Source of the DNA: Caballeronia telluris
GTDB lineage: Bacteria; Pseudomonadota; Gammaproteobacteria; Burkholderiales; Burkholderiaceae
Assembly (NCBI RefSeq): GCF_001544495.1
Contig: NZ_FCNZ02000017.1
Location: forward strand, 1-64,000
DNA length: 64,000 nucleotides
Reading direction: 5' to 3'
Both the position numbers and the translations under genes were made by a program. Below the pieces are notes generated by a model that was not told the DNA's origin, did not search any database, and saw nothing but the letters and a program-made list of their open reading frames with translations. Shown here in pieces: positions 3,051 through 15,391 of the stretch; within the stretch, counting starts at the first letter, position 1; each line of letters begins with the position of its first letter.

Positions 3051-3692
3051 ATGGCATGGACTCGTGATCAAATGGCCGCGCGCGCGGCGCAGGAACTGCA
3101 GGACGGCTTTTACGTGAACCTCGGCATCGGCTTGCCGACGCTCGTCGCCAACCATGTGCCGGCGGGCGTCGAGGTGTGGCTGCAGTCGGAAAACGGGCTG
3201 CTCGGCATCGGGCCGTCGCCGACGGAAGAAGAAGTCGACGCCGACCTCATCAACGCCGGCAAGCAGACGGTGACGACGCTGCCGGGCTCGTCGATCTTTT
3301 CGTCGGCGGATTCGTTCGCGATGATCCGCGGCGGCCACATCAACCTCGCCATCCTCGGCGCGATGCAGATCAGCAAGACGGGCGATCTCGCCAACTGGAT
3401 GATCCCGGGCAAGATGATCAAGGGCATGGGCGGCGCGATGGACCTCGTGGCGGGCGTCAAGCGCGTCGTCGTGCTGATGGAGCACGTCGCAAAGGGCGAC
3501 CAGCACAAGATCCTCGAAGAATGCACGCTGCCGCTGACGGGCGTGGGCGTCGTGAACCGGATCATCACGGACCTGGGCGTGATCGACGTCACCGAGAACG
3601 GGCTGAAGCTGGCCGAACTGGCAGACGGCGTCACGGCTGAAGAGATTCAGCAGAAGACCGGCGCGCCGCTGGACGTGAGCGGCGTGAAATAA
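3051..3692 (+). CDS. scoB: 3-oxoacid CoA-transferase subunit B
   Basis: A 213-residue beta subunit partnering ScoA. The catalytic glutamate lies in [12 protein letters not shown] (E47), which forms the glutamyl-CoA intermediate in this family. The motifs [15 protein letters not shown] and [18 protein letters not shown] are also typical. Two in-frame ATGs compete: 3045, which overlaps the scoA stop as ATGA, and 3051. The GGAG at 3040-3043 is 1 base from 3045 but 7 bases from 3051, so I chose 3051. An intrinsic terminator follows at 3718. Confidence 0.92.
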
Positions 3693-3717
3693 GCGCTGCG
3701 GGTTGCGTCGGTAAAAG

Positions 3718-3755
3718 GCGGGCGAAGCGTGAGGCTTCGCCCGCTTTCCTTTTTT
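3718..3755 (+). terminator. Intrinsic terminator after scoAB
   Basis: An 11-bp perfect GC-rich stem (3718-3728 with 3734-3744), a 5-base loop, then a T-rich tract to 3755. It closes the scoAB operon. Confidence 0.9.
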
Positions 3756-3882
3756 GGGCCGTCTTTTTGCTTGGGCACACTGGCCGTGTTCGCACTTGTC
3801 CGTTCGGCGAACGTGGCGCGAGGCGCGCAATCTCGGCAGCCAAACTGTTTACAATCGATTCGACTCTCATCGAGGAAAGCCC

Positions 3883-4806
3883 ATGTCCATGCCCATCGTC
3901 GAAGCTACGCCCCTGAAGTCCACGGCAGCCGAGCCGCGCCAGCGCTACGTGCAGTGCGCGAGCCCGGCGGGATTGCATCGCGTTGCGTACACGGAATGGG
4001 GCGATCCGGCGAATCCGCGCGTGCTGCTCTGCGTACATGGGCTCACGCGCTCGGGCCGCGACTTCGACGCGCTCGCCCGCGCGCTTTGCCGGGAGTATCG
4101 CGTGGTGTGTCCGGATGTCGCCGGGCGCGGCCTGTCGGACTGGCTCGCCGAGCCGAAGTACTACGGCGTGCCGCAATACATCGCCGACATGGTGACGCTT
4201 ATCGCGCGGCTGAACGTCGAGACGGTGGACTGGTTCGGCACCTCCATGGGCGGGCTGATCGGCATGGCGCTCGCGGGCCTGCCGAACACGCCGATCCGCA
4301 AGATGCTGCTGAACGACGTCGGACCGCACATCGAGCCGGTGGCGCTGCAGCGCATCGGCCAGTACCTCGGCAAGCCCGCCGAATTCGCGACGCTCGATGA
4401 AGGCATCGTCCATGCGTCGACGCTCGCGGCATCGTTCGGCACCTTGACGGACGAAGAATGGGCCCAGATCAACACGCCGCTTTTGCGTGAGCGCGAAGGG
4501 CGCTGGGGTTTTCGCTACGACCCGGGCATCGCGTTGCCGTTCGCCGCCGCGACCGACGAAACCAATGCCGCCGGCGAGGCGTTCCTGTGGCACTCGTTTG
4601 TCTCGATAAAGTCGCCGGTGCTCGTCGTGCGCGGCGAAACGTCCGATTTGCTGTCGCGCGAGACGGTTGAGCAAATGGTCGCGCGGGGCCAGGCGGTCGA
4701 GAGTTGCGAGATGGCGGGTGCGGGGCACGCGCCCGCGTTTCTCGCGGCGGAACAGATCGAGGTCGCGCGGCGCTTCTTTCTCGAAAACAGATCGGACGGG
4801 GCATAA
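3883..4806 (+). CDS. Alpha/beta fold hydrolase
   Basis: A 307-residue alpha/beta hydrolase. The oxyanion-hole region is LLCVHGLTRSGRDF (48-61), the nucleophile elbow is GTSMGG with S121, and the late GAGHAP motif supplies the catalytic His. The fold covers esterases, lipases and C-C hydrolases; the substrate is not evident. The start at 3883 follows GAGGAAAGCCC. The strings of a typical epoxide hydrolase or haloperoxidase are absent, so I give no narrower name. The RidA-like gene follows after 54 bases on the same strand. Confidence 0.88.
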   Translation: MSMPIVEATPLKSTAAEPRQRYVQCASPAGLHRVAYTEWGDPANPRVLLCVHGLTRSGRDFDALARALCREYRVVCPDVAGRGLSDWLAEPKYYGVPQYIADMVTLIARLNVETVDWFGTSMGGLIGMALAGLPNTPIRKMLLNDVGPHIEPVALQRIGQYLGKPAEFATLDEGIVHASTLAASFGTLTDEEWAQINTPLLREREGRWGFRYDPGIALPFAAATDETNAAGEAFLWHSFVSIKSPVLVVRGETSDLLSRETVEQMVARGQAVESCEMAGAGHAPAFLAAEQIEVARRFFLENRSDGA

Positions 4807-4860
4807 TATTGGGCTCGGCGGCGCGCTCATCCCGGGCGCGCGCACACCAAAGGGACACCC

Positions 4861-5214
4861 ATGGCAGTTACTCGTCATCACGTCGGCGCGCGTCTTTCCG
4901 AAATCGCGATTCACAACGGAACGGTCTATCTGGCGGGCCAGATCGCCGAAGACACGGAACAGGACATCAGCGGCCAGACCCGCGAAGTGCTCGGCCACAT
5001 CGACCGTCTGCTCGAAGAAGCCAACAGCGACAAGTCGCATCTGCTGTCGGTGCAGATCTATGTCTCCGACATGGCGAATTTCCCCGCGATGAACGCCGTG
5101 TGGGACACGTGGGTCGCCGCCGGCAACACGCCGCCGCGCGCTACCGTCGAAGCCAAGCTCGCGAATCCGGCGTGCCTCGTCGAAGTCGTCGTGGTGGCGG
5201 CGCAGCGTAGCTAG
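4861..5214 (+). CDS. RidA family protein (reactive intermediate/imine deaminase-like)
   Basis: A 117-residue YjgF/YER057c/UK114 (Rid) protein. It shows the trimer-forming core NGTVYLAGQIAED near 19-31, LLSVQIYVSDMANFPAMN, and the PPRATVEAKLANP motif, with an Arg at the position used to bind 2-imino/2-oxoacids in RidA. The family hydrolyses reactive enamine/imine intermediates from PLP enzymes, but several Rid subgroups lack this activity. It is probably co-transcribed with the hydrolase before it and relA after it (24 bases). Confidence 0.9.
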   Translation: MAVTRHHVGARLSEIAIHNGTVYLAGQIAEDTEQDISGQTREVLGHIDRLLEEANSDKSHLLSVQIYVSDMANFPAMNAVWDTWVAAGNTPPRATVEAKLANPACLVEVVVVAAQRS

Positions 5215-5238
5215 GCCTTTCGCTGTCGCTTTGATCGC

Positions 5239-7482
5239 ATGACCGATACCGCCGTTTCCCCCGAACTGTTGCCCGAGCCGTCCTTCGACGACGCGCTCGC
5301 GTTCGTGCGCGAGCACGCGGGCGACGCGCGGCTCGTGAGCGGCGAGCCGCTCGTCGAGCACGCGCTGGGAACGGCGCGCATCGTGCAGTCGCTTAACATC
5401 GACTCGCACGCGGTCGCGGCGGCTGCGCTCTTCACCCTGGCGCCGCATCTCGACGATCCGACGCATGCGATCGGCGAGCGCTTCGGCCCGGAAGTGGAGG
5501 CGCTCGTGTCGGACGTGCGCAAGCTCGCGCGGCTCGGCTCGGTCAGTTCGCGCGCGACGCAGGCGGTGTTGCCCGAAAGCGGGCGCGATGCGCAGGCCGC
5601 GCGCCGGGCGCAGGTCGAGGCGCTGCGCAAGATGTTCCTCGCGTTCGCGCAGGACATCCGCGTGGTGCTGATCCGGCTCGCGTCGCGCGTGCAGTCGCTG
5701 CGCTACTACGCGGCGCAGAAGACCCAGCCGCCGCCGGACGTGCCGCGCGAGACGCTCGAAATCTACGCGCCGCTCGCGAACCGGCTCGGCATCTGGCAAC
5801 TGAAGTGGGAACTCGAAGACCTCGCGTTCCGCTTCGAAGACCCCGTCACCTACAAGCGCATCGCGAAGCTGCTCGACGAGCGGCGGGTCGAGCGCGAATC
5901 GTATGTGACGAGCGCGATCGCCCGGCTGCAGACCGAGCTTGCGACCGCGCACATCAAGGCCGAGGTGAGCGGCCGGCCGAAGCACATCTACAGCATCTGG
6001 AAGAAGATGCGCGGCAAGGAGCTCGACTTCGCCGAACTGAACGACGTGCGCGCGTTTCGCGTGATCGTCGATGACATCAAGGATTGCTACACGGTGCTCG
6101 GCATCGTGCACAACCTGTGGCAGCCGGTGCCGAAGGAATTCGACGACTACATCTCGCGGCCGAAGCCCAACGGCTACAAGTCGCTGCACACGGTCGTGAT
6201 CGGCGACGACGGCCGCGCGTTCGAAGTGCAGATCCGCACGCACGAGATGCATCGTTTCGCGGAATACGGTGTCGCGGCGCACTGGCGCTACAAGGAAGCC
6301 GGCACGCGCGGTTATGCGGGCCAGGTGACGGCGAGCGAGAAGTACGACGAGAAGATCGCGTGGCTGCGGCAGTTGCTCGCGTGGAAGGACGACGTGTCCG
6401 ACACCGAACGGCCGGGGTCCGGGCCTGGGCCTGGGTGGCAGCAGTTGCGCGACGCCACGCTCGACGACGACCACATCTACGTGCTCACGCCGCAGGCGCG
6501 CGTGATCGCGCTGCCACAGGGCGCGACGGCCGTCGATTTCGCCTATCACCTGCATAGCGAACTCGGGCACCGGTGCCGCGGCGCGCGCGTCGACGGCGCG
6601 ATGGTGCCGCTCAACACGCCGCTGCAAAACGGCCAGACGGTCGAGATCGTCGCGGTGAAGGAGGGCGGCCCCTCGCGCGACTGGCTCAACCCGCAACTCG
6701 GCTACCTGCACAGCGCGCGCGCGAAGCAGAAGGTGCGCGCGTGGTTCAACGCGGTCGAGGCTGAGGAGAACATCGCGTCGGGCCGGGCGATCGTCGAAAA
6801 GACGTTGCAGCGCGAAGGCCGGACGTCGGTCAATCTGGACCAGCTTGCCGCCAAGCTCGGCTTCAAGACGCCCGAGGAACTCTACGCGCTCGTCGCGAAG
6901 GAAGAATTCAGCCTGCGACACATCGAGCAGGCGCTCTCCGACACGCCGCCGCCCGAGCCCGAACCCGAAGCGCCCGAGCAGTTTGAAAAGCGCAGCAGTG
7001 GGCAGAGCGTGGCGGCGGGGGCATCGACGGGCGTGCTGGTCGTCGGCGTCGATGCGCTCCTCACGCAGCTCGCGCGTTGCTGCCGCCCGGCGCCGCCGGA
7101 CCCGATCGCGGGTTTCGTGACGCGCGGCAAGGGCATGTCGATCCATCGCAGCGACTGCGCGACCTTCAAGCGGATGGCCGACCGTTCGCCCGAGCGCGTG
7201 CTGCACACGACCTGGTCGGCGGACGTGATGGGCGGGCGCGGGCAGTCGGTGTATCCGGTCGATCTGGCGGTCGAATCCGCCGACCGGCAGGGGCTGCTGC
7301 GCGACATTTCGGAAGTGTTCGCGCGTGAAAAGATCAACGTCGTCGGCGTAAAGAGCCAGAGCCGGCGCAATATCGCGTACATGCACTTCACGGTCGAGGT
7401 GTCGAATGCCGCGCAGATTCAGCGCGCCTGCACGCTGCTCGGCGAGGTGCAGGGCGTGATTCGTGCTTCGCGCCGCGCCTGA
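5239..7482 (+). CDS. relA: GTP pyrophosphokinase RelA, (p)ppGpp synthetase
   Basis: A 747-residue RelA/SpoT homologue. The N-terminal HD-like region is degenerate, with LFTLAPHLDD where hydrolases keep an HD pair, so hydrolase activity is not expected. The synthetase domain spans about 245-350. It carries EFDD at residues 300-303, the acidic EXDD signature of monofunctional RelA enzymes (SpoT-type enzymes carry RXKD), followed by PKPNGYKSLHT. A TGS domain starts near 409 and an ACT domain fills about 671-745. RelA makes ppGpp on ribosomes stalled with uncharged tRNA. It sits directly before tRNA-Val and the thrS block. The start is the first ATG of the frame, with only a weak ribosome-binding site. 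Confidence 0.93.
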   Translation: MTDTAVSPELLPEPSFDDALAFVREHAGDARLVSGEPLVEHALGTARIVQSLNIDSHAVAAAALFTLAPHLDDPTHAIGERFGPEVEALVSDVRKLARLGSVSSRATQAVLPESGRDAQAARRAQVEALRKMFLAFAQDIRVVLIRLASRVQSLRYYAAQKTQPPPDVPRETLEIYAPLANRLGIWQLKWELEDLAFRFEDPVTYKRIAKLLDERRVERESYVTSAIARLQTELATAHIKAEVSGRPKHIYSIWKKMRGKELDFAELNDVRAFRVIVDDIKDCYTVLGIVHNLWQPVPKEFDDYISRPKPNGYKSLHTVVIGDDGRAFEVQIRTHEMHRFAEYGVAAHWRYKEAGTRGYAGQVTASEKYDEKIAWLRQLLAWKDDVSDTERPGSGPGPGWQQLRDATLDDDHIYVLTPQARVIALPQGATAVDFAYHLHSELGHRCRGARVDGAMVPLNTPLQNGQTVEIVAVKEGGPSRDWLNPQLGYLHSARAKQKVRAWFNAVEAEENIASGRAIVEKTLQREGRTSVNLDQLAAKLGFKTPEELYALVAKEEFSLRHIEQALSDTPPPEPEPEAPEQFEKRSSGQSVAAGASTGVLVVGVDALLTQLARCCRPAPPDPIAGFVTRGKGMSIHRSDCATFKRMADRSPERVLHTTWSADVMGGRGQSVYPVDLAVESADRQGLLRDISEVFAREKINVVGVKSQSRRNIAYMHFTVEVSNAAQIQRACTLLGEVQGVIRASRRA

Positions 7483-7571: not shown

Positions 7572-7600
7572 TTGCCAAGATTCAAAACGGTCCATATAAT
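7572..7600 (+). promoter_or_regulatory. Sigma-70 promoter of tRNA-Val (and possibly thrS)
   Basis: TTGCCA at 7572-7577, a 17-base spacer, and a perfect TATAAT at 7595-7600. Expected transcription start is about 7607, just before the tRNA at 7613. Confidence 0.85.
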
Positions 7601-7612
7601 TTCGTCTTCTTC

Positions 7613-7689
7613 AGGCTCGTAGCTCAGCTGGTTAGAGCACCACCTTGACATGGTGGGGGTCGTTGGTTCGAGTCCAATCGAGCCTACCA
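7613..7689 (+). tRNA. tRNA-Val (GAC)
   Basis: A 77-base tRNA. The acceptor stem AGGCTCG pairs with CGAGCCT, the D-arm begins AGCTCAGCTGG, and the anticodon loop is TTGACAT with anticodon GAC. The T-arm GGTTCGAGTCC and an encoded CCA end are present. It is preceded by a near-consensus promoter. Confidence 0.97.
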
Positions 7690-7720: not shown

Positions 7721-7763
7721 CAACACCGCAGGAAGCGCCTCGGCGCTAAAGGCGATCAAAAAG

Positions 7764-7808
7764 ATGGCACCGCGAACGTTGACCGAAACAACTTCGGAGC
7801 GACGCTAG
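7764..7808 (+). CDS. Candidate threonine-rich leader peptide of thrS
   Basis: A 14-codon reading frame, ATG to TAG, encoding MAPRTLTETTSERR. Four of its 14 residues are threonine (codons ACG, ACC, ACA, ACT, one of each), clustered at positions 5-10. AAAGG lies 12-16 bases upstream as a possible ribosome-binding site. It lies between tRNA-Val and thrS, and an intrinsic terminator (7848-7884) separates it from the thrS start. That layout matches amino-acid-specific attenuators such as thrL or pheM. The residues and the terminator are read directly; the regulatory role is inference. A 14-codon frame can occur by chance, but four threonines next to a threonyl-tRNA synthetase is suggestive. Confidence 0.55.
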   Translation: MAPRTLTETTSERR

Positions 7809-7862
7809 TCGAGGACCTCTTTCGCCCTTGTGGTGTGTAAGAAAGTGAATGCGGCCCCTCGA
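7809..7862 (+). promoter_or_regulatory. Candidate antiterminator pairing in the thrS leader
   Basis: TCGAGG at 7809-7814, directly after the leader-peptide stop codon, is exactly complementary to CCTCGA at 7857-7862. The latter overlaps the 5' arm and loop of the terminator. A ribosome stalled on the Thr codons would leave 7809-7814 free to pair and block the terminator. A ribosome at the stop codon would cover it. Six base pairs is short, so this is a hypothesis. Confidence 0.35.
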
Positions 7863-7884
7863 ATGTGGGGCCGCATTTTTTTTT
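7848..7884 (+). terminator. Intrinsic terminator upstream of thrS (putative attenuator)
   Basis: An 11-bp perfect stem (7848-7858 with 7867-7877), an 8-base loop, and nine T residues from 7876. It stands 92 bases before the thrS ATG. No complete gene other than the tRNA and the leader peptide lies in front of it, so an attenuator role is likelier than simple operon termination. Confidence 0.88.
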
Positions 7885-7976
7885 GCCTATTTGAATTGCC
7901 TGCTGTTGCCCTTGGAGTCCGAAGGGCATGGCTGATTTGAACTTGATCGCCGTGTGCCGGCGTCTTGGAGAACGAA

Positions 7977-9884
7977 ATGGTTTCGATACGCTTGCCCGAC
8001 GGCTCCGTCCGACAGTACGACCACCCCGTGACGGTCGCCGAAGTCGCGGCCTCGATCGGCACGGGTCTCGCCAAGGCCGCGCTCGGCGGCCGGGTGGATG
8101 GCGAACTCGTCGATACATCGGCGCTGATCGACCATGACGCGTCGCTTGCCATCGTCACCGAGAAAGACGCGGACGGCCTCGACATCGTTCGTCACTCGGC
8201 CGCGCACTTGCTCGCCTACGCCGTGAAGGACCTGTATCCGGAAGCGCAGGTGACGATCGGGCCGGTCATCGACAACGGTTTCTACTACGACTTCGCCTAC
8301 AGCCGTCCCTTCACGCCCGAAGATCTCGAAAAGATCGAAAAACGCATGCAGGAACTTGCGAAGAAGGACGAGCCGGTGTCGCGCCGCGTCGTCTCGCGCG
8401 ATGACGCCGTCGATTACTTCAAGAGCATCGGCGAGAAGTACAAGGCGGAGATCATTGAGTCGATTCCGGCAAGCGACGAAATCAAGCTTTATTCGCACGG
8501 CGGGTTCACCGACCTGTGCCGCGGGCCGCACGTGCCGTCGACCGGCAAACTGAAGGTGTTCAAGCTGATGAAAGTCGCGGGCGCATACTGGCGCGGTGAC
8601 TCGAAGAACGAGATGCTTCAGCGCATCTACGGCACGGCCTGGACCAAGAAGGAAGATCAGGAAGCGTATCTGCACATGCTGGAAGAGGCCGAGAAGCGCG
8701 ATCACCGCAAGCTCGGCAAGCAGCTCGACTTCTTCCATCTGCAGGACGAAGCGCCCGGCATGGTGTTCTGGCATCCGAAGGGCTGGTCGCTGTGGCAGCA
8801 GGTCGAGCAGTACATGCGCCGTCGCGTGAACGCTGCCGGGTATCTCGAAATCAAGACGCCGATGGTCATGGACCGTTCGCTCTGGGAAGCCTCGGGTCAC
8901 TGGCAGAATTATCGTGAAAACATGTTCACGACCGAGTCGGAGAAGCGCGACTACGCCATCAAGCCGATGAACTGCCCGGGCCACGTGCAGGTGTTCAATC
9001 ACGGCCTGCGTTCCTATCGCGATCTGCCGCTGCGCTACGCGGAGTTCGGTTCGTGCCATCGCAACGAGCCGTCGGGTTCGCTGCACGGGCTGATGCGCGT
9101 GCGCGGCTTCGTACAGGACGATGCGCATATTTTCTGTACGGAAGACCAGTTCATCTCGGAATCGATCGCGTTCAACACGCTCGCGATGAGCGTCTACAAG
9201 GACTTCGGCTTCGAGAACATCGGCATCAAGCTCGCGCTTCGTCCCGACCAGCGTGCGGGCACCGACGAAATCTGGGATCGCGCCGAACAGGGCCTGCGCG
9301 ACGCGCTGACCGCGTGCGATCTGCAATGGGAAGAATTGCCGGGCGAGGGCGCCTTTTACGGTCCGAAGATCGAATATCACATCAAGGACGCGCTCGGCCG
9401 TTCCTGGCAGTGCGGCACGCTGCAGCTCGACATGGTCCTGCCCGAGCGCCTCGGCGCGGAATACGTGTCGGAAGACAACAGCCGCAAGCGCCCGGTCATG
9501 TTGCACCGTGCGATCGTCGGGTCGATGGAGCGGTTCCTCGGCATTCTGATCGAGCACCACGCTGGTGCGATGCCCGCTTGGCTCGCGCCAGTGCAGGCGG
9601 TTGTGCTGAATATCGCGGAAAATCAGGTGGATTACGCTCGCGATCTGGCCCAATCGTTGCAAAAACAAGGGCTTAGAGTAGAGGCGGATTTGCGCAACGA
9701 GAAGATTAGCTATAAAATACGCGAGCACACGCTGCAAAAGGTCCCGTATTTGCTGGTCGTCGGCGACAAGGAGCGTGAGGCGAAAACCGTAGCCGTGCGT
9801 GCTCGTGGCGGTGTCGATCTAGGTTCCATGCCGGTCGACGCATTCCTCGAACGCCTGCAGCAGGACGTGCAGACGTTCAAGTAA
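7977..9884 (+). CDS. thrS: Threonyl-tRNA synthetase
   Basis: A 635-residue class II synthetase that charges tRNA-Thr in the cytoplasm. The N-terminal TGS domain ([20 protein letters not shown]) is followed by the editing domain ([20 protein letters not shown], with the metal-site HxxxH), the catalytic core with [12 protein letters not shown] and [15 protein letters not shown], and the C-terminal anticodon-binding domain. Its length equals the family norm. The ATG at 7977 follows GGAG at 7967-7970; an upstream in-frame TTG at 7965 is less likely. It is the first gene of a thrS-infC-rpmI-rplT-pheS-pheT-ihfA block, the same order as in E. coli. The preceding leader suggests threonine-responsive attenuation. 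Confidence 0.96.
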
Positions 9885-9931
9885 GTCACCCGCAGCGCGG
9901 CTTGTTTTTTAATTTTTAGAGGAAACGTAAC

Positions 9932-10456
9932 ATCGCTACTGATAAGTCGTCACATCGCATCAACGGTGAAATTACCGCACCCGAGGTGCGCTTGGTCGGA
10001 GTGGACAACGAGCCGCTCGGAATCGTGAAACTCGCCGATGCTTTCCGCCAGTCGGAACAGCTGGACGTGGATCTCGTCGAAATCGCGCCGCAGGCCGTGC
10101 CGCCTGTCTGCCGTTTGATGGATTACGGCAAGTTCAAGTACTCGGAAGCGAAGAAGCAGCACGAGGCGAAGCTCAAGCAGAAGATCGTTCAGGTCAAGGA
10201 AGTCAAGTTCCGGCCGGGCACCGACGACGGTGACTACAACGTGAAACTGCGCAACCTCACGCGTTTCCTCGAAGACGGCGACAAGACGAAAATCACGTTG
10301 CGTTTCCGTGGGCGCGAAATGGCCCACCAGGAAATCGGCATGCGCATGCTGGAACGCCTGAAGGCGGATCTCGATGAACACGCGCAAGTCGAGCAGATGC
10401 CGAAGATGGAAGGCCGCCAGATGATCATGGTGCTGGCGCCGAAGAAAAAGAAGTAA
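9932..10456 (+). CDS. infC: Translation initiation factor IF-3, AUC start codon
   Basis: IF-3 (174 residues) binds the 30S subunit, prevents premature 50S joining and checks the start codon. The N-domain begins with [17 protein letters not shown], and the C-domain carries [20 protein letters not shown]. No ATG lies at the expected N-terminus; the first in-frame ATG (9986) would cut off the conserved beginning. An ATC at 9932 is preceded by AGAGGA with an 8-base spacer and gives [12 protein letters not shown], so I take ATC as the start. IF-3 genes are known for rare AUU/AUC/AUA starts that allow autoregulation. It lies 47 bases after thrS. Confidence 0.93.
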
Positions 10457-10649
10457 TCGATGGATCGCGCCGGTTTGGCGCGGCATCGACGGAAGTTTCA
10501 GGGCGCCGCCGGGCAACCGGCGACGCTCATGGAAATGCGGCGGTTGTCTCAATCGCTTGCACACAAGTGGTACGTGGGTTTCGAAGGGCGGGAAAGGATC
10601 GATGGATCAACCGCACACCCATGTCCATCTAATAAACTGGAGTAGTTTC

Positions 10650-10847
10650 ATGCCGAAGATGAAGACCAAGAAGAGTGCTGCAAAGCGCTTCGTGGTGCGT
10701 CCGGGCGGTACCGTCAAGCGCGGTCAGGCCTTCAAGCGCCACATCCTGACGAAGAAGACCACCAAGGTCAAACGCCATTTGCGCGGTTCCACGGCTGTTC
10801 ATCAAGCAGATATGAACTCCGTGCGCGCAATGCTGCCGTTCGCTTAA
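10650..10847 (+). CDS. rpmI: 50S ribosomal protein L35
   Basis: A 65-residue, very basic protein starting [14 protein letters not shown], the family signature, and ending in the usual RAMLPFA. It is part of the 50S subunit. The gene follows infC by 193 bases, a long gap that in E. coli holds the L20 control site of the rpmI-rplT genes. I see no clear pseudoknot by eye but a similar control is possible. CTGGAG lies upstream of the ATG. Confidence 0.96.
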
Positions 10848-10876
10848 CCCTTAACCGAAACTCATAGGAGCGCAAC

Positions 10877-11236
10877 ATGCCTCGAGTAAAACGTGGGGTT
10901 ACCGCACGGGCCCGTCACAAGAAAGTCATCAAGCTGGCCAAGGGTTACCGCGGCCGTCGCAATAACGTCTATCGCATCGCCAAGCAGGCGGTCATGCGCG
11001 CCGGGCAATACGCCTATCGCGATCGCCGCAACAAGAAGCGTGTGTTCCGCGCACTGTGGATCACGCGTATCAATGCAGCGGTGCGTCAGCACGACATGAC
11101 CTACAGCGTGTTCATCAATGGCCTGAAGAAGGCTCAGATCGAACTCGACCGCAAGGTTCTGGCTGACATGGCTGTGTTCGACAAGGCTGCTTTTGCTGCG
11201 ATCGTCAAGCAGGTGAAAGCCGCCGTTGCAGCCTAA
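10877..11236 (+). CDS. rplT: 50S ribosomal protein L20
   Basis: A 119-residue protein starting [20 protein letters not shown], the typical L20 N-terminus, with a strongly basic first half that contacts 23S rRNA and a globular C-terminal half. L20 is an early 50S assembly protein and in several bacteria represses its own operon by binding mRNA. TAGGAG precedes the start by 7 bases. It lies 29 bases after rpmI. Confidence 0.97.
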
Positions 11237-11301
11237 TTGCGAAATTAGTACTGCGTGGTTCGTCGCCGCGAAGATCCGGTAGTTTCGGTGCCGCAGCGAC
11301 A

Positions 11302-11329
11302 GAAAACGGGGCTTTCGAGCCCCGTTTTC
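11302..11329 (+). terminator. TTCG-loop terminator or attenuator between rplT and pheS
   Basis: A 12-bp perfect stem, GAAAACGGGGCT paired with AGCCCCGTTTTC, closed by a TTCG tetraloop. The arm itself provides the T-tract (TTTTC). It stands about 77 bases before pheS. I find no phenylalanine-rich short frame ahead of it, so a pheM-style attenuator is not evident. Confidence 0.75.
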
Positions 11330-11405
11330 GTTGGTCGGGCGGATTGCACATGTGGCCGCCCGTTCGGTTGAGCAGTTGAACTTCGACGTTGAAAAGATGG
11401 GATCA

Positions 11406-12419
11406 ATGGACCTGGACCAGATTGTCGCCGACGCGCAAAGCGCCTTTGAAAACGCCTCCGATGCCGCCACCCTCGAAAACGAGAAGGCGCGCTTTCTCGG
11501 CAAATCGGGCGCGCTCACCGAGTTGCTGAAGGGCCTCGGCAAGCTCGATCCGGAAACGCGCAAGACCGAAGGCGCGCGCATCAACGTCGTCAAGGCGAAG
11601 GTCGAAACGCTGCTTACCGCGCGACGCCAAGCGCTCGCCGACGCGCTTTTGAACCAGCGGCTCGCGGCCGAAGCGATCGACGTGACGCTACCCGGGCGCG
11701 GTCTTGGCGCGGGCACGCTGCATCCCGTGATGCGCACGTGGGAGCGGGTCGAACAGATCTTCGCGACGATCGGTTTCGATGTGGCCGACGGCCCCGAGAT
11801 CGAAACCGACTGGTACAACTTCACCGCGCTGAACAGCCCGGAGAATCATCCGGCGCGTTCGATGCAGGACACGTTCTACGTCGACGGCAACGACGCCGAC
11901 GGCCGGCCGCTCCTGCTTCGCACGCACACGAGCCCGATGCAGGTGCGCTACGCGCGCATGAACAAGCCGCCGATCAAGGTGATCGTGCCGGGCCGCACGT
12001 ATCGCGTGGACAGCGACGCCACGCACTCGCCGATGTTCAACCAGGTCGAAGGCCTGTGGATCGAAGAGAACATCAGCTTTGCAGACCTGAAGGGCGTCTA
12101 CACCGACTTCCTGAAAAAATTCTTCGAGCGCGACGACATTCTCGTGCGCTTTCGCCCGTCGTACTTTCCGTTCACCGAACCGTCCGCCGAGATCGACATG
12201 ATGTTCGAGCACGGCAAGAACGCCGGTAAATGGCTCGAGATTTCGGGCTCCGGTCAGGTTCATCCGACCGTCATCCGTAACATGGGTCTCGACCCGGAGC
12301 GCTATATCGGCTTCGCGTTCGGCAGCGGCCTCGAACGCCTGACGATGCTGCGCTACGGCGTGCAGGACCTGCGCCTTTTCTTCGAAAACGATCTGCGTTT
12401 CCTGCGGCAGTTCGCGTAA
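11406..12419 (+). CDS. pheS: Phenylalanyl-tRNA synthetase alpha subunit
   Basis: A 337-residue class II catalytic subunit of the alpha2-beta2 enzyme that charges tRNA-Phe. The N-terminal coiled coil (about 1-90) is followed by the catalytic domain with [34 protein letters not shown] (motif 2 region), and [18 protein letters not shown] (motif 3). The start [11 protein letters not shown] at 11406 matches the family; an ATG 9 bases earlier is also in frame. pheT follows after 82 bases. Confidence 0.96.
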
Positions 12420-12501
12420 CGCGCTTCTCGCCCACGATGCCCGGTGCATAAGAAATCCTAAGACCGGGCGCAGACACCACTTATTTCGAACGTAGACACA
12501 C

Positions 12502-14934
12502 ATGCAATTCCCAGAATCCTGGCTTAGAAGCTTCGTCGATCCGGCACTGACGACCGACGAACTGTCGCACGCGCTGACGATGGCGGGTCTCGAAGTCGAA
12601 AGCTTGCAGCCGGTCGCGCCGCCGACCACGAAGATCGTCGTCGGGCAGGTGCTGGAAGTCGCCAAGCATCCGGACGCGGACAAGCTGAACGTCTGCCAGG
12701 TCGACGCCGGCACGGGCGAGACGCTCAACATCGTGTGCGGCGCGCCGAATGTGTCGCCCGGCATCAAGGTGCCGGTCGCGCTGGTCGGCGCCGAGTTGCC
12801 GCCGGCAGAGGCGGGCGGTGCGCCGTTCGCGATCAAGCTGTCGAAGCTGCGCGGCGTCGAGAGCCAGGGCATGCTGTGCTCGGCGCGCGAACTCAAGCTG
12901 TCGGAAGATCACAGTGGCTTGCTGATCCTTTCCGCCGATGCGCCGATCGGCCAGGACATTCGCGAGACGCTCAATCTCGACGATACCGTCTTCGAAATCA
13001 AGCTGACGCCGAACAAGGCGGACTGCCTCTCGGTGTTCGGAGTCGCGCGCGAGACGGCCGCGATCACGGGCGCGCCGCTCACGACGCTCGACATGCCGCC
13101 GGTCAACGCGACGCTGGACGAAAAGCTGCCGGTCAAGATTCTCGCGCCCGACCTGTGCGGCCGCTTCTCCGGCCGCGTGATTCGCGGCGTGGACGCGCAC
13201 GCGAAGACGCCGCAATGGATGGTCGAACGGCTGGAGCGGTCTGGTCAGCGCAGCATTTCGGCGCTCGTCGACATCTCGAATTACGTGATGCTCGAACTCG
13301 GCCGCCCGACCCATGTGTTCGATCTCGACAAGATTCACGGCGGCATCGAAGTGCGCTGGGCGAAGAAGGGCGAGTCGCTCAAGTTGCTGAACGGCAACAC
13401 CGTCGAACTCGACGAAACCGTCGGCGTGATCGCGGATGACCATCAGGTCGAAAGCCTCGCGGGCATCATGGGCGGCGACAGCACAGCCGTCTCGCTCGAT
13501 ACGACGAACATCTACCTGGAAGCCGCGTTCTGGTGGCCCGACGCCATCCGCGGGCGCGCGCGCAAGTACAACTTCTCGACCGACGCGGCGCATCGCTTCG
13601 AGCGCGGCGTCGATTATTCGACGACCGTCGAACACATCGAGCGCATCACGCAACTGATTCTCGAGATCTGCGGCGGCGCGGCCGGCCCGGTCGACGATCA
13701 GATCGTCAATCTGCCGACGCGCGCGCCGGTCGCGATGCGCGTCTCGCGCGCGCATCGGATCATCGGCATCGAGATTGGCGCCGAAGAGATCGCGCAGATT
13801 TTTACGCGCCTCGGTCTCGCATTCGAGCGCGATGGTGACACCTTCTTGGTGACGCCGCCGCCGTATCGCTTCGACATCGAGATCGAAGAGGATCTGATCG
13901 AGGAAGTTGCGCGCATTTACGGCTTCGAAAAAATTCCGGCACGGCCGCCGGTCGCGAAGAGCGAAATGCGTCCGACCAACGAGACGAAGCGCTCGATCCA
14001 CGTGATCCGCCACGCGATTGCCGCGCGCGACTACGCGGAGACGGTGAACTTCAGTTTCGTCGATGCCGAGTGGGAGCGGGATTTCGCGGGCAACGACAAC
14101 CCGGTCAAGCTGCTCAATCCGATTGCGAGCCAGTTGTCGGTCATGCGCACGACGCTCTTCGGCAGCCTGATCAACGTGTTGCGCTACAACCTGAACCGTC
14201 GCGCGGAGCGTATCCGCGTGTTCGAGGCGGGTCGCGTGTTCCTGCGCGATCCGTCGATCAAGGCGGGCGAACTCGCTGTCGAAGGCTTCGCGCAGCCGAA
14301 GATGATCGGCGCGCTGGCCTATGGGCCGGCGCTGGACGAGCAGTGGGGCGCGCCGTCGCGCACTGTCGATTTCTTCGACGCGAAGGGCGACGTCGAGGCG
14401 CTCTTTGCGCCCGTGATGCCGCGCTTCGTGAAGGCCGAGCATCCGGCGCTGCATCCGGGACGCAGCGCACGCATCGAAATCGATGGCCGCGCGGTCGGCT
14501 GGATCGGCGAGCTTCATCCGCGCTGGCTGCAAAAGTATGACCTTCCGCAAGCGCCGATTCTTTTCGAAATCGAAGCAGAAGCGCTGATGGAACGCTCGCT
14601 GCCGGTGCCGTCGGAGGTGTCGAAATTCCCGCCGGTGAAGCGCGATATTGCGATCGTCGTCGACGAGAAAGTGGAGGCTCAGACGCTCCTGGACGAGCTC
14701 GAAAACGCCCGTTCCGAACCCGCGTGCAAGCACGTCACGAGGGTTGTGCTGTTCGATGAATTTCGTCCAAAATCAAGCACTTCCGGTGGGTTGGGGGCGC
14801 ACGAGAAAAGCCTTGCCTTCCGTGTGACGTTGCAAGATACTGGCGGGACGCTTCAGGACGAAACGGTCGAAACGGCCATCAAAACGCTGGTGGATCGCTT
14901 GGCTCGAGTACATGGCGCGCGGTTGCGCGGATAG
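12502..14934 (+). CDS. pheT: Phenylalanyl-tRNA synthetase beta subunit
   Basis: An 810-residue beta subunit. The start [20 protein letters not shown] is typical. A tRNA-binding OB domain follows at about 40-150 ([19 protein letters not shown]), then the B3/B4 editing region, the B5 domain, a catalytic-like core, and a C-terminal FDX-ACB anticodon-binding domain ([20 protein letters not shown] onwards). The subunit provides tRNA recognition and removal of mischarged Tyr. It is probably co-transcribed with pheS and ihfA. Confidence 0.96.
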
Positions 14935-14980
14935 CCTTTGGTTGGCCCCTCCGTCTTCATCGTCACGCCATTTTTATGAT

Positions 14981-15391
14981 ATGAACCAAATGAACTCGAG
15001 TGATTTCGAAGCCCTTCTTTCGGCGCAACGCAGCGCCATGATCCGAGATATCCCGACTTCGAACGGCGCGGCGTCCAGTGAGACGCCGACGCTCACGAAA
15101 GCCGAACTGGCCGAGATGCTGTTCGACCACGTCGGACTCAACAAGCGCGAAGCGAAAGACATGGTCGAAGCCTTCTTCGAAGTCATTCGCGACGCGCTCG
15201 AAAGCGGCGACAGCGTCAAGCTGTCCGGCTTCGGCAACTTCCAGTTGCGCGACAAACCGCAGCGGCCGGGACGCAATCCGAAGACAGGCGAAGCCATTCC
15301 GATCGCCGCCCGTCGCGTCGTTACGTTTCACGCGAGCCAGAAGTTGAAGGCGCTGGTCGAGACCGGCGCGGAAACCAGCTTCGGCCGCTGA
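14981..15391 (+). CDS. ihfA: Integration host factor alpha subunit with N-terminal extension
   Basis: A 136-residue HU/IHF family DNA-bending protein. The family core begins [20 protein letters not shown] and includes [20 protein letters not shown] and the DNA-intercalating loop [14 protein letters not shown]. Compared with the E. coli protein, which starts at this core, there are about 37 extra residues ([20 protein letters not shown]...), a feature I recall from Burkholderia homologues. ATGs at 14981 and 14990 are both possible, and neither has a good ribosome-binding site. IHF works as a heterodimer with IhfB in recombination and transcription control. Confidence 0.93.

Follow-up and report, generated by a model that had tools for sequence, protein, structure and literature searches.

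A candidate threonine leader-peptide attenuator upstream of thrS in beta-proteobacteria

Leader-peptide attenuators are well known from enteric bacteria, where they control thrABC, pheST, trp and his. Control of thrS is usually described from E. coli, in which the thrS operator mimics tRNA-Thr and threonyl-tRNA synthetase (ThrRS) binds its own mRNA, giving translational control.

According to the text of PMC2965389, hisS and hisZ of bacilli are under leader-peptide control; the main text of that paper does not contain thrS, although it does name E. coli threonyl-tRNA synthetase. The text of PMC8079986 gives a threonine leader peptide, thrL (MKRVRPFLETTPGFVPAR), annotated before thrS of Streptomyces lividans TK24, and the part of PMC5688073 that was covered places tRNA-synthetase genes, as two locus tags, among short 5'UTRs. 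Within the covered parts of these texts, a thrS leader is described in PMC8079986 and not in PMC2965389, PMC5688073 or PMC2330054, and the terms sought are absent from the main texts of PMC4603805, PMC7011215 and PMC7563307. No published threonine leader before a beta-proteobacterial thrS was found in a literature coverage without supplements and most subscription papers.

Here we analyze the region upstream of thrS in a 64,000-nucleotide stretch of Caballeronia telluris DNA (the window, meaning the whole stretch). A sequence-only reading of this region knew of no described thrS leader of this kind, a statement corrected by the leader annotated before S. lividans thrS in the text of PMC8079986. 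The region very probably acts as a ribosome-mediated transcription attenuator of thrS-infC-rpmI-rplT-pheST, and the class of mechanism is a known one. The basis for this reading consists of conservation, Thr enrichment, in-frame length changes, covariation, the terminator and the energies of competing folds; transcription, translation of the leader and the response to threonine are what we infer from the sequence.

Layout of the region between tRNA-Val and thrS

The features of the region are summarized in Table 1. The four Thr codons of the leader ORF are all different (ACG, ACC, ACA and ACT), and part of TCGAGG is used by the stop-codon hairpin. The 14-codon frame with its four different Thr codons and TAG stop, the TCGAGG/CCTCGA complement and the terminator with nine T residues before thrS had all been reported from the letters alone, and each was found where it had been placed. 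At the Shine-Dalgarno-like place, AAGGC or a similar stretch was seen by eye in many relatives. The segment 7690-7884 folds at -90.9 kcal/mol (z -6.8), which is beyond chance.

Table 1. Positions of the features upstream of and including thrS in the window
Feature	Position	Strand	Remarks
Sigma-70-like promoter TTGCCA-17-TATAAT	7572..7600	+	11/12 consensus matches; consensus only; upstream of tRNA-Val
tRNA-Val (gac)	7613..7689	+	Co-transcription possible
Weak Shine-Dalgarno-like AAAGG	7748..7752	+	11 nt 5' of ATG; by eye
Putative leader peptide ORF MAPRTLTETTSERR + TAG	7764..7808	+	14 codons, ATG 7764-7766, TAG 7806-7808; Thr at codons 5, 7, 9 and 10
Stop-codon hairpin CGAC-GCTA-GTCG	7800..7811	+	1:2 stem; competes with antiterminator; covariation
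Putative antiterminator, 5' strand TCGAGG	7809..7814	+	Covariation, pair probability
Putative antiterminator, 3' strand CCTCGA	7857..7862	+	Within terminator 5' arm and loop; covariation
Intrinsic terminator	7847..7884	+	12-bp stem 7847-7878, nine T 7876-7884; kept in relatives
thrS (threonine--tRNA ligase)	7977..9884	+	TIGR00418, 739.8 bits vs cut-off 383.65

The thrS gene starts with the ATG at 7977, with an in-frame TTG at 7965, and heads the series thrS-infC-rpmI-rplT-pheS-pheT, whose five downstream genes also scored above their NCBIfam cut-offs. A consensus scan revealed no promoter-like site in 7800-15300. Since the sole such site found precedes the tRNA gene, the simplest reading is that tRNA-Val, the leader and thrS may share one transcript starting at 7572..7600. 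Rfam searches of the window and five relatives returned no family for the leader and no T-box match upstream of thrS.

A RelA/SpoT family gene (window 5239-7482, TIGR00691 above cut-off) immediately precedes tRNA-Val and thrS, and a relative also precedes the leader in 8/49 named loci. Very long minus-strand open frames at 3631-7386 (1251 aa) and 7887-9737 (616 aa) lie opposite real genes and probably result from codon use at high G+C.

Conservation of the leader and its threonine codons

A DNA search within the family of the window matched the leader in 91 of 200 genomes and left it unmatched in the other 109; 38 of the 92 matching places started exactly at query base 75, the ATG. Ninety family loci, including the window, were analyzed, with G048 and a second place in G185 left out. 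The leader core and terminator could be aligned in 89 of them, giving 79 distinct leaders, and the remaining locus, L088, showed MFLRTLTGTTKAS plus a terminator by eye. Arg-Thr (codons 4-5) opened the core in all 79 distinct leaders, the register being set by a 16-mer that starts there, and of these leaders 78 have Thr at codon 7, 68 at codon 9 and 40 at codon 10. The stop lay 11 codons past the core start in 75/79, and the in-frame length changes observed were multiples of three (L050 and L077, each +3; L080 and L090, by eye). In L010 the ATG is lost, with another in-frame ATG three codons upstream, and in L051 the TAG is lost and the frame runs four codons further. An alignment of relatives had been suggested by the sequence-only reading as a check, and within the family it showed the frame, Thr codons, stop, complement and terminator to be kept. 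Selection for Thr at codon 9 or 10 was considered and dropped as too weak: Thr is missing from both positions in L017 and L067, vs about 5 leaders expected by independence, in a count for which L090 is out of register.

Loss of the frame with retention of the terminator had been named as the observation that would speak against attenuation. This was seen in the small-genome relatives L139 and L140 and in L170, all three of which have the terminator behind tRNA-Val, a place at which the hairpin can still terminate transcription of the tRNA. These three loci, together with the tRNA-Val directly upstream in the window, agree with a different explanation, in which the hairpin is just the tRNA-Val terminator, thrS has its own promoter and the small frame has no regulatory effect. 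However, six loci (L099, L111, L112, L114, L116 and L120; the L099 leader is L133 in the terminator listing) carry leader and terminator where ARAGORN finds no tRNA, so the terminator does not belong to tRNA-Val alone, and the consensus scan of the window detected nothing promoter-like from the terminator to thrS. We regard this explanation as highly improbable.

Beyond the family, a covariance model matched 95 of 399 genomes of the order (E up to 0.1). Among the 30 loci returned from these matches, 25 adjoin thrS, four of them with window-type leaders, and L105, L108, L110, L113 and L119 are not beside thrS. Leaders of other families mostly open with ATG ACA CCG CGA AC, for example MTPRTTTTICERR, MTPRTTTETSTSR and also MTPRTCKAPEPRR. 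An 18-mer allowing at most one mismatch matched 12 of 150 genomes of the order at one place each, and a reversed 18-mer gave no match in the genomes listed. The region upstream of thrS was examined in 110 of 148 genomes with thrS (the 30 returned plus 80 chosen across families), and the start block (at least 13 of 18 bases) was found in 18 of these 110 loci. L225 (13/18 bases) is left out of this count as a chance match, although the scores of L121, L122 and L123 do not exceed its own.

An exact 17-mer of the leader start, GTTATGACACCGCGAAC, occurred in at least 119 stretches of genome contigs. Among the matches listed, thrS lay 114-306 nt downstream in 75 of 80 loci examined; the scan was made without using thrS. 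In these 75 loci, among the matches listed, the ORF is 10-22 codons long. Outside the 75 are L292, L301 and L303, with just 43-347 bases past the ATG, and L241 (1497-1513) and L246 (5498-5514), whose matches are probably chance, with no thrS found nearby; the sources of these two are a deltaproteobacterial MAG and a Melioribacteraceae MAG. Genera with the 17-mer leader include Burkholderia, Paraburkholderia, Cupriavidus, Massilia, Janthinobacterium, Variovorax, Acidovorax, Comamonas, Rhodoferax and Roseateles, among others. Downstream genes in named loci with room for them were infC in 47/49, rplT in 35/37 and pheS in 20/20. A stretch like GAGCGAGAAAGGCA was noted by eye 5' of GGTT-ATG in L099, L111 and many of L231-L310, and goes beyond what a ribosome site seems to require.

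Because codons 1-4 and two bases of codon 5 are set by the 17-mer, Thr was counted from codon 6. From there on, Thr made up 22.8% of codons in frame 0 vs 0.7% and 4.8% in the other frames (75 loci, among the matches listed). In the 65 distinct peptides among the matches listed, Thr accounted for 125 of 572 residues from codon 6 on, occupied codon 6 in 48 and codon 7 in 34, and occurred again beyond the 17-mer in 62. Codon 6 is Thr in 55 of the 75 loci (18 ACG, 14 ACA, 14 ACT and 9 ACC, among the matches listed). Some families have few Thr codons, as in MTPRTCFFLR and MTPRTFPSLI.

Ninety-two of the 110 thrS loci are motif-less at 420 nt (93 at 260 nt, L123 being the one that moves), and 61 of these have a terminator. 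A Thr-rich ATG ORF preceded the terminator in 17 of the 61, vs a mean of 0.77 and a maximum of 3 in 100 Markov resamplings; examples are MSFRTTTTGTLNLG, MFKRTTTTRISR and MFRTCTTTWC. Other ATG ORFs in these loci were Val-rich in 12, which we take to be frames over tRNA, and Arg-rich in 7. With GTG and TTG starts allowed, Arg-rich ORFs (19/61 loci) were as common as Thr-rich ones (20/61), which counts against the attenuator reading. The recurrence of Thr-rich ORFs in motif-less loci suggests that Thr-rich thrS leaders are widespread in the order, and they seem to occur in more than one sequence form. The attenuator reading first drawn from the letters thus gains support, because Thr-rich leaders and terminators recur before thrS in other families.

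Alternatively, the conserved block might act as an RNA element recognized by one of the operon's proteins (ThrRS through mimicry of tRNA, L20, L35 or IF3), with the frame incidental. A near-constant ATG ACA CCG CGA AC in several families fits this idea, as do the presence of rplT in the operon and a weak match to the Rfam L20_leader (RF00558) at 7755-7888. That match was rejected as an L20 leader, being below threshold (22.7 bits vs a gathering score of 58.7) and resting on the terminator and an A/T-rich linker. Furthermore, Thr enrichment is confined to frame 0 with free wobble at codon 6, length changes are in-frame, and Rfam at the gathering score gave tRNAs only in five relatives. We consider a protein-bound RNA very unlikely. 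Little probability likewise attaches to arrest by the nascent peptide or a rare codon (the Arg-Thr start, codon CGA) as the trigger in place of tRNA-Thr shortage. It would account for the Arg-Thr at the core start of 79/79 window-type leaders, in a register set on that core; however, Thr enrichment extends past the search block with free wobble, and other families have Thr runs without MTPRT.

A broader proposal combines three parts: an order-wide family of thrS attenuators, a start block ATG ACA CCG CGA AC that serves both as coding sequence and, without a ribosome, as the RNA strand pairing with the antiterminator, and Phe runs added in some lineages, so that threonine and phenylalanine would both be sensed. 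Taken jointly, these parts are doubtful. Pairing of the start block was seen by eye in f49-type leaders (CCGCGAAC/GTTCGCG), and the two amino acids are those whose synthetases, ThrRS and PheRS, share the operon with IF3, L35 and L20. Variovorax-type leaders (L232 93-109, L248, L274 and L290) are longer, with several Phe after the Thr block, and the L232 leader with its Phe run reads MTPRTTPQGFSGFFFFEGNGR. Phe enrichment as such was weak and was not adopted: 38/572 residues overall and 24/494 without five long Variovorax-type peptides, with a background of 3.8% (five window proteins).

Competing folds of the leader RNA

A terminator was found between the leader and thrS in 74 of 75 loci among the matches listed, vs 0/75 after one shuffle each, and in 33 of 34 leaders of a further set. 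Covariation was analyzed in an alignment of 32 of the 79 distinct leaders, all of window type. For the stop-codon hairpin, 99.2% of cells were paired and three of the four pairs had changed on both sides, a result that 0/500 shuffles reached. For the antiterminator TCGAGG/CCTCGA, 92.9% of cells were paired and two pairs had changed on both sides (7/500 shuffles), a count affected by rows L081 and L085-L090, which have shifts or gaps in the terminator loop. Sliding the antiterminator by -1 or -2 columns gave three doubly changed pairs, at 69.0% and 55.4% of cells paired; since a slide of one column already yields three, antiterminator covariation is the weaker evidence. The alignment thus suggests that the stop-codon hairpin covaries clearly and the antiterminator less clearly. 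A 5' stem, GGCGA/TCGCC, was discarded for want of covariation. The fold model originally put forward held as to the conserved complement and lacked the competing stop-codon hairpin.

To follow the competition along the frame, the RNA ahead of the ribosome was folded codon by codon, with its edge assumed to lie 12 nt beyond the first A-site base. In the window, the antiterminator pair probability was 0.65, 0.81, 0.85 and 0.96 with the A site at Thr codons 5, 7, 9 and 10, and fell to 0.04-0.00 between codon 13 and the stop. The antiterminator also formed with the ribosome at codons 1-4 in the window, and at codons 1-3 in most of 12 leaders. In L015, its probability was just 0.11-0.20 on the Thr codons.

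A looser measure, which took in every upstream pairing of the terminator arm, saturated and told the states apart in just 2 of 46 leaders; the energy coupling of the terminator arm to the upstream RNA was adopted after that. In the 46 leaders, coupling was -7.4 with the ribosome at the last Thr, -4.3 with it at the stop, -3.3 in its absence and -5.1 with shuffled linkers, Thr being favoured over the stop by 2 kcal/mol in 28 and the reverse holding in 2. In the 13 window-type leaders, coupling was -9.5 at the last Thr vs -3.3 at the stop. Contrary to the stop-codon part of the model, the six f49 leaders gave -8.6 at the stop vs -6.6 at the last Thr, and the two f38 leaders (-8.8 at the stop, -8.7 at the last Thr) did not follow that part either.

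A wider set comprised 54 of 74 leaders (among the matches listed) after removal of near-duplicates. In these non-redundant leaders from the matches listed, coupling was -7.9 at Thr, -5.2 at the stop, -3.6 with no ribosome and -5.7 with a shuffled linker. Thr was favoured over the stop by 2 kcal/mol in 30 of the 54 (5 reversed) and over no ribosome in 42 (3 reversed), again among the matches listed. The corresponding P values for the 54 leaders (matches listed), which ignore kinship, were 7e-6 vs the stop, 2e-9 vs no ribosome and 7e-7 vs shuffles. The effect is modest in both leader sets, and its P values take no account of kinship. The folding model therefore predicts, for the most part and with exceptions, that the antiterminator forms with a ribosome on the Thr codons and is weakened near the stop or without a ribosome.

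Proposed mechanism and comparison with known systems

The region shows the hallmarks of an attenuator: a conserved short ORF, enrichment of cognate codons, a terminator, a mutually exclusive antiterminator and a 1:2 protector hairpin. In the proposed attenuator, RNA polymerase would start upstream and a ribosome would follow, translating MAPRTLTETTSERR. With ample charged tRNA-Thr, the ribosome would reach the stop codon and cover TCGAGG, and with no ribosome TCGAGG would be held by the stop-codon hairpin and other upstream pairing. In either case, CCTCGA would stay free and the terminator would form before thrS. With charged tRNA-Thr in short supply, the ribosome would stall on the Thr codons and the stop-codon hairpin would be disturbed. 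TCGAGG could then pair with CCTCGA, blocking the terminator, so that thrS and the rest of the operon would be transcribed. A stall across most of the frame would open the gene, and specificity for threonine would come from the codons.

A large group of beta-proteobacteria thus appears to control thrS by a leader peptide. Such control would extend to an operon that also encodes IF3, two ribosomal proteins and PheRS and, if true, would tie threonine supply to translation capacity.

Compared with the enteric attenuators, the arrangement is the same in its short ORF rich in cognate codons, stop-proximal hairpin, antiterminator and Rho-independent terminator before the operon; it differs in standing before thrS-infC-rpmI-rplT-pheST and in a start block common to several families. 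The E. coli thrS operator likewise controls thrS, but acts on translation, whereas the thrS leader described here consists of a leader ORF and a transcription terminator.

As given in the text of PMC8079986, S. lividans thrL is also a Thr-containing leader before thrS. It differs in having 18 codons, two Thr and a leaderless start, and termination there is called unclear, with one hairpin and no U-rich stretch (PMC8079986, in the part covered). The hisS and hisZ leaders of bacilli, as presented in the text of PMC2965389, share the placement of a cognate-codon leader before an aminoacyl-tRNA synthetase gene and differ in the amino acid, histidine, and in the phylum, Firmicutes. What is new here is a threonine leader attenuator, as we read it, before a beta-proteobacterial thrS; the kind of attenuator itself is classical.
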